Origin: an uncultured Methanomicrobiales archaeon
GTDB lineage: Archaea; Halobacteriota; Methanomicrobia; Methanomicrobiales; Methanospirillaceae
Direction: 5' to 3'
DNA: 64,000 bases
Assembly: GCA_903832665.1 (NCBI GenBank)
Contig: CAILCG010000026.1
Span: forward strand, 1-64,000
Both the position numbers and the translations under genes were made by a program. Positions 18,316-25,189 of this stretch are shown piece after piece; position 1 is the first letter of the stretch, and every line of letters begins with the position of its first letter. The notes under the pieces are model-generated. The model searched no databases and was not told the DNA's origin. It saw nothing but the letters and a program-made list of their open reading frames with translations.

Positions 18316-19690
18316 TCAGGGCTGCCCGGGCATCCGGAAACGGCGGGCACAGACCGAGACTGCTTCGCCGGTCGTAGGAAACAGGTGGTACATATCCGCC
18401 AGCTCGTGAACCGGAAGATGTCGCGATACGGCAAGTACCGATGCCTGGAGAATCTCGGTGGCGAGCGGGGAACAGATATGGACCCCCAGCAGTCGCTCGT
18501 CTTGCTTACCCGCTACAATCTTCACCATCCCCCTGGTATCCCCAACCATTGACGAGCGGGCCATCGAATCCATCCGGAGAGTCCGGGTATCAGGGTCCAG
18601 GCCGGCAGCCCGGGCCTGCTGCTCCGTCATTCCCACACTGGCAACCTGCGGCATGGTGAAGATACCGCGGGGGATGCATGAACGATCGAACGAACGTTTC
18701 GGTTCCCCAAATGCATTGAGGGCTGCGATCTCCCCGGAGTACCGGGCTGCGGTCTCCAGCATCGGTTCTCCGGTGACATCCCCGGCAGCCCAGATACCCG
18801 GCGTTGTTGTCTTCAGCATCGCATCGACAAGCACAGCCATTTGGGCGGGTTGTTACACCTGCCCGTTCGAGATGAAGACTTCGGGTATTCGGGGAACGCC
18901 CTGCTGTAAGAAGCAGGTGTTCTGCAAAAAACACCTGTTCAATCCCCCCGATAGTACCAACCACCTCAATTCCTGTGGCAGTTTTCCTGATGCCCGTAAT
19001 TGCAACCCCCGTCCTGATATCGATACCCTCGTTACGGAGATAACCGGTAAGGAGCTCGGCAATCTCAGGTTCCTCTTCGGGGATGATGCGGGAGCTTCTC
19101 TGCAGGAGCGTAACGTTTGTCCCGAGGTGGGTATACAGCTGGACAAATTCAAGTCCCAGCGCCCGTCCCCCGATAACAATGATCGATGCCGGTATGCGTT
19201 CAGGATTCAGGGCCTCAGTATTTGTCATGAAAGGGACCGAGTCTAAACCTGTGAGGGGCGGGACTGATGGAGAGGACCCGGTTGCAATGATGATCCGGTC
19301 CGCAGTAACTGCACGACTGCCGATACGCAGTTGTCCCGGAGCCACGAACTCAGCGGTCCCCGTTATGATCTCAATGCCAAGCCCGGTGACCATGCGATCC
19401 GTCTTCTTCTGTTTTAACCGCGAGATCAGGGCATCTTTCTCAGCGATAATCTCTTCCAGGTTGATGTTGCTCTCCACCCGGAGGCCGGCATGGCCGTGGT
19501 TTTTGTAATAATACTCCTCCGCCAGGGTCAGAAGGAATTTACTGGGAATACATCCGGTATTTACACAGGTCCCCCACAGAATCCCCTGCTCAACAATCGC
19601 TACCCGGGACGCCCCTTGGTGAATAGCAGTGGTTGCAGCAGTGGCTCCGGCAGCACCGCTTCCTATCACCAGAAGATCATAATCAGCCAT
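18316..19690 (-). pseudogene. MerA-/dihydrolipoamide dehydrogenase-like flavoprotein disulfide reductase, frameshifted
   Basis: N-terminal ORF 18590..19690 (FAD motif GSGAAGATAATTA; GTCVNTGCIPSK) and C-terminal ORF 18316..18840 (WAAGDVTGEP...; dimerisation domain) are in different frames; break near 18838-18850 in gcccaaatggc. Confidence 0.85.
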
Positions 19691-19703: not shown

Positions 19704-19928
19704 CTATTCTTCGACATGGATAACTTCGGCAGGACACGCATCGGCAGCACCTTTCACGCAGGAATCCTGGTCCTTAGGCGGGGACCCCTGGGCAGGATTT
19801 TTCCCCAGTCGGAATTTTTCTGTTACCTGGCTTAATGAATCGTCAGGATTCTCCTCAAAGAAATCCGGGCAGGTATCCCGGCAGGTTCCGCAGCTTACGC
19901 ACCCATCTCGGTCAATGGTCACCTTCAT
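19704..19928 (-). CDS. ferredoxin (small Fe-S protein)
   Basis: 74 aa from internal Met; CVSCGTCRDTCPDFFEE...CVKGAADACPAEVI. Confidence 0.9.
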   Translation of the reverse strand: MKVTIDRDGCVSCGTCRDTCPDFFEENPDDSLSQVTEKFRLGKNPAQGSPPKDQDSCVKGAADACPAEVIHVEE

Positions 19929-20055: not shown

Positions 20056-20307
20056 TCAACAGCCCGCAAGCCCGTTATCCTCTGCCTGGATAAAACGGTA
20101 CTGGTAGATGATCTGGCGCATATCACGCATGTTCATCTTCTCGATCAGGAGATTTTTTTCCTTGAGTTTCTTCAGGGCGTACCGTATCGTCCTTGGAGAA
20201 GAGGCTGATCTTCTCACGATATCCTTGTGGGTCATTGCACCTTCCGTGCTCAGGATCTCCAGCACATTTTTCTGCGACATGGGTAAAGAGTTCATGATAA
20301 TCCTCAC
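20056..20307 (-). CDS. winged-helix transcriptional regulator
   Basis: 83 aa; LEILSTEGAMTHKDIVRRSASSPRTIRYALKKLKEKNLL (wHTH). Confidence 0.82.
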   Translation of the reverse strand: MRIIMNSLPMSQKNVLEILSTEGAMTHKDIVRRSASSPRTIRYALKKLKEKNLLIEKMNMRDMRQIIYQYRFIQAEDNGLAGC

Positions 20308-20316
20308 TTTTTTAAT

Positions 20317-20664
20317 TCATCCATTACTATCCGCACAGCATTCCTGTCCTGCATCAGGCGCATTCCTGTCAGAAAGGATCCGGGCGAGCGCTTTTTTCAC
20401 GAAATCATCGATCGATTCCATTGTCCCCCACGATTCCACCGTATATGCATCGGATCGTTCGGGATCAGAGATGATCAACACATTTCCCTCTTGGTTCGGC
20501 CCGGAAACATATTTTTTCCCGAGATGCAGGTGGTGGAGACCTTCCTCGTGGGACTTGGGCACCCTGGCATGAATGATCCAGTAGGTCAGGGCATCGGTCG
20601 CACTGATATAAATTTCATAATCCTGTTCGAATTTTTTTACGAGTGCCTGTGTTTGTTCTTTCAT
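20317..20664 (-). CDS. hypothetical protein in the encapsulin operon
   Basis: 115 aa, same strand, between wHTH and encapsulin genes. Confidence 0.7.
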   Translation of the reverse strand: MKEQTQALVKKFEQDYEIYISATDALTYWIIHARVPKSHEEGLHHLHLGKKYVSGPNQEGNVLIISDPERSDAYTVESWGTMESIDDFVKKALARILSDRNAPDAGQECCADSNG

Positions 20665-20690: not shown

Positions 20691-21488
20691 TTACTTCAGC
20701 ACACAGATGGACTCCGGTGCCCGGACCAGGAGGGCAAGACTTTCCGAAATACTGAACTCAAGCGAATCTTCATACGGGCCGTTGTACCCGATGCTCATAT
20801 CCTGCCCAATCACCAGAGAACAGTACTGACGACCGGAAGCGAGCACGACGCCGCCTTTTTTGAGGACCGGTGCCTTGATAACATCCCCGGCCAGGATCGT
20901 CCGGCAATGATCGATTTCCGTCCCGTCTCCCTGGGGATAACGCCGGAGGAGAAGGTTATACTGGGCGGGGGAGAGCGCCATACTGTAGGGACCGTGGAAC
21001 CCGGCATCATCCAGCTTGGTCACAGCACTGATGATCTGGTCGGCAGCAGCGCCAACCTTGTCCCACTTTGTCAGGGTCAGGGAACCGGATCCCTCCGCCT
21101 TGAGAAGCCCGGGGGCATCCATGATCCCGTTGAAGATGATATCATCTTCTTTCGCTGCACAGGTGATGGCAGCCCCCGCGACCGGGCCGGCATCCAGAAC
21201 CAGCCGGTCCCTTTCGCTTGCTGCAAGATCCCGCTTGTTTAAGAAGAACGATGTTGTCACCAGGTTCACCGGAATAAATGCACTGGTGGTGATTCCGTCG
21301 GGGGTCTCGAAGTCGCTGAGGGGTATGACCTTGAGCCCGAACCCGAACGGTCCGTCGATACTGAGCAGGCGCCTCCCGGAAAGCTGGCTTTTTGCTGCTT
21401 CGATCATGGTAGTGTCGAGCAGTTTCCAGGTTTCAGCGCTTATCGGGGCATCTTCTCTTCCAAGATAGTTTTTTTCCATGTTTTTCAT
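20691..21488 (-). CDS. encapsulin (family 1 / linocin M18-like) nanocompartment shell protein
   Basis: 265 aa; encapsulin-type N-term (YLGREDAPISAETWKLLDTTMIEAAKSQLSGRRLLSIDGPFGFG) and C-term (ILAGDVIKAPVLKKGGVVLASGRQYCSLVIGQDMSIGYNG...FSISESLALLVRAPESICVL). Confidence 0.93.
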   Translation of the reverse strand: MKNMEKNYLGREDAPISAETWKLLDTTMIEAAKSQLSGRRLLSIDGPFGFGLKVIPLSDFETPDGITTSAFIPVNLVTTSFFLNKRDLAASERDRLVLDAGPVAGAAITCAAKEDDIIFNGIMDAPGLLKAEGSGSLTLTKWDKVGAAADQIISAVTKLDDAGFHGPYSMALSPAQYNLLLRRYPQGDGTEIDHCRTILAGDVIKAPVLKKGGVVLASGRQYCSLVIGQDMSIGYNGPYEDSLEFSISESLALLVRAPESICVLK

Positions 21489-21491
21489 CTC

Positions 21492-21857
21492 CTATGATTG
21501 TTTTAAGGATCCGATCGTAGTTTCACCCTTGCCCTGGGAAGGGGCTTGTTCCGGGGGTGCCAGTGAAGCTGCCATTGTATCGACTTCGAGCGTCCCTTTC
21601 ATGAGATACGCATCCTCATCCCTTGAAAGGATGGAGATGAGCCGGGCAAACTCACCGACATGCACGCGTTCCTCATTGGCAATATCTATCAGTACCGCCT
21701 TTGCCAGGGGATTTTCCGTTGCATCTGCATGAGCAAGATAGGTGTGGACAGCCTCATGCTCGGCAGCAAGGTCAAGGCGCAGTGCCCGGACCAATTCCCC
21801 GTCAGTCATTGTTCGTTTCGGTACCATTCCGGAGAATGGATTAACAAATTCAGGCAT
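21492..21857 (-). CDS. encapsulated ferritin-like protein (EncFtn-type cargo) with C-terminal targeting peptide
   Basis: 121 aa; ferritin-like helices with EHEAVHTY and EERVH motifs; C-terminus GETTIGSLKQS resembles encapsulin cargo-loading peptides; 3 nt upstream of the encapsulin gene. Confidence 0.9.
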   Translation of the reverse strand: MPEFVNPFSGMVPKRTMTDGELVRALRLDLAAEHEAVHTYLAHADATENPLAKAVLIDIANEERVHVGEFARLISILSRDEDAYLMKGTLEVDTMAASLAPPEQAPSQGKGETTIGSLKQS

Positions 21858-21904: not shown

Positions 21905-22543
21905 TTATTTCTTCATCTTTTCGAGCCGTTGGGCAATTGCGTTCCAGTTCACCAGGTTCCAGAACGTTTCAACAAATTTTGCCCGGTCGTTACGGTAGTC
22001 AAGGTAGTAGGCATGCTCCCAGACATCGAGAACCATCAGGATCTCAAAGCCGGGCATGAGATTCATGTTGTGTTTCTCCACATGCATGAGAAGTGGCCGC
22101 TCTGTCTTGCGGCAGAACGTCAGGACTGCCCACCCGTAGCCTTCCGCACTCGTTGCAGCCTGGGTGAACTCTTTTTTAAAGCGTTCAAAATTGGAAAACT
22201 CGCCATTGATGACTTTGGCCAGTTCACCTCATGGTGCACCTCCGCCTCCCTTTCCCGCCGGGGCCATATTTTCCCAGAACAGGTTATGAAGTTTGAAACC
22301 GCCAATGTGGAACGACAGTTCCTTGAGGGTTGCTTTCATATCGAGATCGGTATTTTCCTTACGTGCCTTGTCCAGTTTTTCAAAGATGCTGTTGGCGCCG
22401 TTCACGTACGCCTGATGGTGTTTCTGGTGGTGAAGCTTGAGCTGTTCTTCAGAGATATAGGGGGCCAGTGCCGAGTATTCGTACGGCAGTTTTGGTAAAG
22501 AATAAAACTTTTTTTCGTCCATACTTCTTTCCTCTGAACACAA
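21905..22543 (-). pseudogene. sod: Fe/Mn superoxide dismutase interrupted by one in-frame TGA
   Basis: 22229..22543 and 21905..22228 share one frame; [39 protein letters not shown]...[30 protein letters not shown]. Confidence 0.9.
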
Positions 22544-23959: not shown

Positions 23960-23975
23960 GGGAACTTAAAAAAAA

Positions 23976-25189
23976 TTATTTCTCATCGTGAACCTTAAAA
24001 TCGGCATCAACAACGTTTTCGCCACCCGGCCCGCTGCCGGCACTTCCCGGTTCGCTGCCGCCGGACGGGGCGGCGTCACGTCGAGCAGCACCATGTCTGT
24101 GATCTCCCCTCCGAGGATTGCACCCTGGATCGCAGCTCCCATGGCAACGCATTCCATCGGGTCAATACCCCGCTCCATCTTCTTGCCGACATGGTCCTCA
24201 ATGAACTTCTGGACAATCGGCATCCGGGTCGGTCCCCCGACAAGGATTACCTTCTGGATATCATCTTTGGTCAGTTTCGCATCCTTGAGCGCTGTTTCAA
24301 ACGGGGTTATACAGCGCTTGATGATGGGCTCGACCAGCTGCTCGAGTTTTGAGCGGCTCAGTTTCAGGGAGAGGTGCTTGGGTCCTGCCTGGGTGGCAGA
24401 GACATAGGGCAGGTTGATCTCGGTCTCAAGAACAGTGGAGAGCTCGATCTTTGCCTTCTCGGCTGCTTCTTTCACCCGGTTGATCGCCATCTTGTCTGTC
24501 CGGATGTCGATGCCCTCCATCTTCTTGAACTCGGACGCAATCCACTCGTAAATCGCATTGTCCATATCGGTGCCACCGAGCTGTGTGTCGCCCGAGGTTG
24601 CGAGCACCGTGAACGTTCCGCCGCCGAATTCCATGATGGTGACATCGAGCGTGCCGCCGCCCAGATCGAAAACCAGGATCTTGTATTCCCCGCCACGGTC
24701 GAGGCCATACGCCATCGAGGCCGCGGTGGGTTCGTTCACGAGCCGGACCACATCGAGGCCGGCGATCTTTCCCGCATCCTTGGTTGCGGTACGCTGGTTG
24801 TCGTTGAAGTACGCCGGGACCGTGATGACAGCCTTGGTCACGGGTTCTCCTAAGAACGCTTCTGCATCCCGTTTTATCTTCTGCAGGATGTAGGCAGAGA
24901 TCTGCTGGGGGGTATACTCCTTGTTGTAGATCTTATAGACGTGAGGAGTTCCCATCTTCCGCTTGGCTGCGGTCACTGTCCCATCGGGATTGGTTACTGC
25001 CTGGCGCCGGGCCGGTTCGCCCACCAGGAGTTGGCCGTCTGCCGTAAACGCTACATATGAAGGGAACATCTTGCCGGCTACCGTTGCTCCTTCCGCGGAC
25101 GGAATGATGGTCGGTTTTCCCCCGACCATGACGGAAGCCTCGCTGTTCGATGTGCCCAGATCGATGCCGATAATTTTTTCCTTACCCAT
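23976..25189 (-). pseudogene. dnaK: DnaK with intact nucleotide-binding domain but substrate-binding domain deleted and C-terminal tail out of frame
   Basis: [35 protein letters not shown]; after MVLLDVTP the frame is lost. The adjacent frame encodes [33 protein letters not shown], a DnaK-type tail. Confidence 0.88.

Follow-up and report, generated by a model that had tools for sequence, protein, structure and literature searches.

Two adjacent genes on the reverse strand of the 64,000-nucleotide stretch of DNA analysed in this study (the window) encode a ferritin-like cargo protein of the EncB family (21492-21857, 121 aa), recognized by its match to the NF058679 model, its match to EncC and its invariant ferroxidase residues, and a family 1 encapsulin shell protein (20691-21488, 265 aa from the first ATG), recognized by HMMs and by its predicted fold. 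The assembly that contains the window consists of 28 contigs (2.88 Mb, completeness 98.8%), and the host is a Methanoregula. Methanoregula is a hydrogenotrophic methanogen in lifestyle and metabolism, and the "strict anaerobe" of the first-pass annotation therefore fits.

The cargo ends in GETTIGSLKQS, and its TAG stop codon (21492-21494) is separated by three nucleotides (GAG) from the earliest ATG at which the shell gene could start; for this ATG, the sequence agrees with the tail and the 3-nt spacing described at first pass. The shell start is probably Met4 (21479), which would give a protein of 262 aa and an intergenic gap of 12 nt, because Met4 is almost invariant among homologues and is preceded by TAGGAG at a distance of 9 nt. 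The Shine-Dalgarno-like AGGAG element for this putative start (21489-21493, reverse strand) overlaps the cargo stop codon, and the same arrangement was found in relatives (L053-L056). The C-terminal targeting (loading) peptide of the cargo, TIGSLKQS (21495-21518, with the core IGSLK at 21501-21515), is preceded on the same strand by a linker from the ferritin-like domain (21522-21581); in the cargo alignment the tail is conserved, whereas the linker is gappy and poorly conserved.

The flanking genes are also encoded on the reverse strand. Upstream of the cargo gene is a gene for an Fe/Mn superoxide dismutase (SOD; 21905-22522; Sod_Fe_N 107.9 bits and Sod_Fe_C 68 bits), the sole SOD found in the genome. 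It is interrupted by an in-frame TGA (22229-22231), which is either a true nonsense mutation or an error in the consensus; in relatives with an intact SOD gene at this location, the codon specifies Lys or Arg. On the other side of the pair are ORF115 (20317-20664), which encodes an uncharacterised 115-aa protein, a winged helix-turn-helix (HTH) regulator (20056-20307; PF13412, 25.9 bits), and a single 4Fe-4S cluster ferredoxin (19704-19928, approximate start MKVTIDRDG; PF13370, 51.8 bits), which is a possible member of the cluster. The DnaK gene (23966-25189) encodes 407 aa with an Hsp70 match that ends at profile position 391 of 599, and DnaJ begins directly after it; DnaK of several relatives has 622-642 aa. 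A gene for a MerA-like flavin disulfide reductase (18316-19690) is split into two frames. Since the SOD, DnaK and MerA-like genes are all damaged within approximately 7 kb, the local sequence quality is suspect.

The shell protein scored 233.6 bits against the encap_f1 model NF041155, with a match to profile positions 1-261 of 261, and 237 bits against PF04454. A profile search had been proposed as the check on encapsulin identity, and the NF041155 score, well above the curated cutoff of 100 bits, upholds that identity. The AlphaFold model of the shell monomer had a pLDDT of 92.3 and a pTM of 0.87, and all 50 matches listed in a Foldseek search of this model against the PDB were encapsulins or engineered derivatives with a probability of 1.00. 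The top matches were Myxococcus xanthus EncA (E 7.7e-29, probability 1.00), which was the best shell match by sequence (E about 1e-38) as well as by fold, and the Bacillus methanolicus shell.

The shell residues that bind the loading peptide have been studied in Klebsiella, where Arg34 and Asp229 keep the peptide GSLNIGSLK in place, both being essential to binding, with impaired loading upon their loss; Ile230 is important, and Asp38 forms a salt bridge with the peptide lysine yet is mostly dispensable (PMC10960027). With the T. maritima shell sequence, checked to be identical to 3dkt, as the numbering ruler, the equivalents of Arg34, Asp229, position 230 and Asp38 in the window shell are R39, D230, M231 and S43. 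Arg and Asp occupy the first two positions in 57/57 aligned shell homologues, with Met or Leu at position 230 and a residue that varies across the clade at position 38. Arg34 and Asp229 are common to the window shell and the T=1 shells of T. maritima and Klebsiella pneumoniae, but these shells are 24-25% identical to the window shell and their Asp38 is not kept in it.

The E-loop lies in the segment that runs from the GPxG glycine up to a conserved Phe. In 49 of 57 aligned homologues, among them the window shell, this segment is 31 residues long, whereas T. maritima (T=1) has 37 residues and EncA (T=3) has 46. The T number is influenced by the arrangement of the E-loop (PMC6668986, PMC11202242), and the size of the shell is therefore not transferable from T. 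maritima or EncA. With its shortened segment, the methanogen/Chloroflexota clade might have a shell geometry unlike that of the solved shells.

The cargo scored 118.5 bits against the EncB_fam model NF058679 (cutoff 90) and matched M. xanthus EncC (7s8t, E 1.3e-16) and the ferritin-like domain of Pyrococcus furiosus (5n5e, E 7.7e-9), and its sequence places it in the EncB/EncC branch. The earlier assignment to an EncFtn-type cargo held for the ferritin-like EncB family but failed for the Pfam EncFtn-like profile (PF22277), which gave 14.6 bits, under the gathering cutoff of 27, and this label was dropped. Residues E33, Y40, E62, E63 and H66 are invariant across 29 aligned homologues. Four of them (E33, Y40, E63 and H66) correspond to E32, Y39, E62 and H65 of Rhodospirillum rubrum, in which E32, E62 and H65 were mutated (PMC11202242). 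The DxxxEExVH segment of the cargo has the Asp form, as does the DxxxEExxH pattern of archaeal fusion-FLPs (PMC11202242), in contrast to the bacterial HxxxEExEH of the M. xanthus type.

The loading tail was surveyed in 80 named encapsulin loci, together with the other ORFs of at least 60 aa in the same loci (n=4,290). A ferritin-like gene was present upstream of the shell gene in 79 of the 80 loci, and 76 of these 79 homologous cargos ended in the strict motif [TSP][IV]G[SAPND][LM][KR], with close variants in the other three (TVGGMKE, TIGTLKQ and VIGSLKT); the motif was found in 0/4,290 of the other ORFs. On these sequence counts the cargo tail is far above chance, and, with the peptide-site residues of the shell kept, they bear out the proposal of a C-terminal loading peptide on a dedicated cargo. 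The cargo TIGSLK closely resembles NIGSLK of the Klebsiella DyP, a cargo that differs from the one in the window, and TVGSLIQ of IMEF. Nineteen IGSLK/VGSLK pattern matches were found in the genome, and only that of the cargo is C-terminal; no second cargo was detected by this search, which was confined to IGSLK and VGSLK. SOD and ORF115 were considered as additional cargos and rejected, both being devoid of a GSLK-type tail.

The gene order SOD-cargo-shell-ORF115-winged HTH was found in 7 of 20 relatives examined, in some of them with a ferredoxin gene close by, and also in seven named Methanoregula loci. A planctomycete has a SOD gene directly after a homologous shell gene. SOD was found in 57/100 genomes and is therefore not useful as a marker for encapsulin genomes.

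ORF115 adjoins the shell gene in 8 of the 20 relatives. Among 99 relatives, it was present in 18 of 29 with a shell gene and in 0 of 70 without one; within the genus the corresponding numbers were 16/17 and 0/21 (Fisher test, 8e-10, a value inflated by shared descent). ORF115 is located apart from the shell gene or on a different contig in five genomes (G010, G015, G027, G040 and G050), which indicates that its association with the encapsulin is more than simple linkage. The winged HTH gene is found downstream of ORF115 in relatives, even when ORF115 and the shell gene are not linked (L149). Most ORF115 homologues have a CG..C motif at the end, with a Cys pair near the C-terminus. Searches of Pfam, NCBIfam, PHROGs and PDB sequences yielded nothing significant for ORF115, and neither did a fold search with its predicted structure (pLDDT 78, moderate confidence). 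Tentatively, ORF115 and its HTH partner might constitute an accessory component of the Methanoregula encapsulins that has not been described before, in a clade whose shell geometry may also differ; examples would be a partner that responds to iron or redox state, or a factor with an effect on the shell or the mineral.

Shell genes above the cutoff were found in 30 of 100 genomes of the order, including that of the window. Methanosarcina acetivorans also has a detected PF04454 gene. By sequence comparison, the cargo-shell system is common to Methanomicrobiales and Chloroflexota. The Chloroflexota loci (Anaerolineae and relatives) have the same cargo-shell pair and tail, with shells about 49-61% identical, but their hosts are bacterial and SOD, ORF115 and HTH genes were not detected alongside. 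The methanogen and Chloroflexota shells formed one cluster in the tree, in which the domain label has to change twice. The archaeal sequences formed a single clade in 0/200 bootstrap trees, with the starred branches still compatible with one origin. Transfer of the system between domains is therefore suggested, and mis-binning of MAGs could contribute to the pattern; such transfer was proposed earlier for family 1 encapsulins in general (PMC8346489).

Several unusual gene arrangements were observed. In one genome (G008), the 5' part of the cargo gene is fused in frame with the shell gene's 3' part to form a remnant (L155:5426-5716), which still has SOD and ORF115-HTH on its flanks; a complete cargo-shell pair is present elsewhere in the same genome. 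A 404-aa ORF in a Thermoleophilia MAG (L130:5602-6816) combines DUF5661 and a family 1 encapsulin in one reading frame, which is a possible fusion or an artefact of an upstream start. Two IMG/VR phage contigs (L135:829-1149 and L136:3886-4206) encode, within the head module, a protein that resembles encapsulated ferritins but lacks a loading peptide; its gene is placed between those for the portal protein (L136) and the head maturation protease (L135). In a second phage type, the gene for an internal virion protein is closely preceded by a similar short ferritin-like ORF (L137:5001-5240 and L138:5001-5240).

The system resembles the M. xanthus EncB/EncC system in that the cargo is a protein of its own with a loading peptide at its C-terminus, but M. 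xanthus has several cargo genes whereas the window system has one, in an archaeal host and in the SOD/ORF115 context. It resembles the P. furiosus system in being archaeal, with a related ferritin-like domain that has the Asp-type DxxxEExxH, but this domain is fused to the shell in P. furiosus and is a separate peptide-tagged protein in the window. Every tested defining feature of a family 1 encapsulin with an EncB-type tagged cargo was found, and the gene pair therefore belongs to a known system. The HMMs, the conservation, the peptide-site residues and the predicted fold are all in agreement with the archaeal family 1 encapsulin and dedicated ferritin-like cargo proposed by the first-pass annotation.

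The HK97 fold is common to family 1 encapsulins and phage capsids, and the shell protein weakly matches a PHROGs major head profile (25.7 bits), so that a prophage or decayed viral capsid gene was considered. This origin is extremely improbable and was rejected, in view of the encap_f1 score, the surrounding heat-shock, redox and regulator genes, the persistence of the shell gene beside a tagged cargo in both Archaea and Bacteria, and an IMG/VR search in which no relatives of the shell were found. Given an encapsulin, its main activity might be the reduction of peroxide, in the manner of rubrerythrin, rather than the storage of iron; the cargo has a weak similarity to the Rubrerythrin and Mn catalase models, and SOD, whose product is H2O2, is encoded upstream in many relatives. 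This seems unlikely, since HMM searches of the cargo found no rubredoxin domain and no peroxidase domain or family match and its best matches are encapsulated ferroxidases. Ferroxidases can use H2O2 too, and the peroxide and iron roles are therefore not exclusive.

Constitutive bulk storage of iron for an iron-rich methanogen metabolism, unrelated to oxidative stress, would be consistent with the large amounts of iron stored by EncA/EncB/EncC-type encapsulins (PMC9321382) and with the high iron demand of methanogens (PMC8351635). It is nevertheless a doubtful explanation, because two conventional ferritins are encoded elsewhere in the genome, ferritin-family genes were found in 57 of 60 genomes searched, the encapsulin is patchy in its distribution (30/100 genomes), and the gene context is one of oxidative stress. 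Because of the two conventional ferritins, the encapsulin was also rejected as the only iron store of this organism.

The locus very probably encodes a two-gene family 1 encapsulin with a TIGSLK-tagged ferritin-like cargo, which would act as an iron-oxidising stress compartment. By analogy with characterised homologues, the cargo would assemble via a metal-binding interface, probably into a decamer, and its flexible tail would dock in a luminal groove formed by the N-terminal helix and the P-domain of the shell (Arg39, Asp230 and Met231), so that the cargo could be packaged during shell assembly. Fe2+ would enter by the pores, be oxidised at the putative E33/E63/H66 (Y40) site and be deposited within the shell. 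The gene context suggests a stress response in which the compartment would lower free Fe2+ and consume oxidant when the anaerobe meets oxygen, working alongside SOD and possibly co-regulated with the neighbouring HTH and ORF115 genes. Points that count against this account are the Ser in place of Asp38, the shorter E-loop segment, the two conventional ferritins and the in-frame stop in the SOD gene of this genome. Judging from homology and gene neighbourhood, stress-related iron oxidation and sequestration is the likely function.

No dedicated description of encapsulins in methanogens was found in a literature search that was not exhaustive. Archaeal ferritin-like cargos with a tag are included in surveys of the whole family (PMC8346489), and the missing description is therefore no proof of novelty. 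Ferritin-type encapsulins in archaea have been described mostly as shell-cargo fusions (PMC11202242, PMC8346489). In conclusion, the two-gene type with a peptide-tagged cargo is found in a genus of methanogens and in its order, is shared with Chloroflexota and is often located beside SOD, and ORF115 is singled out as an uncharacterised protein linked to the encapsulin. For methane producers that are sensitive to oxygen, the system offers a testable route by which oxidative damage driven by iron might be limited.
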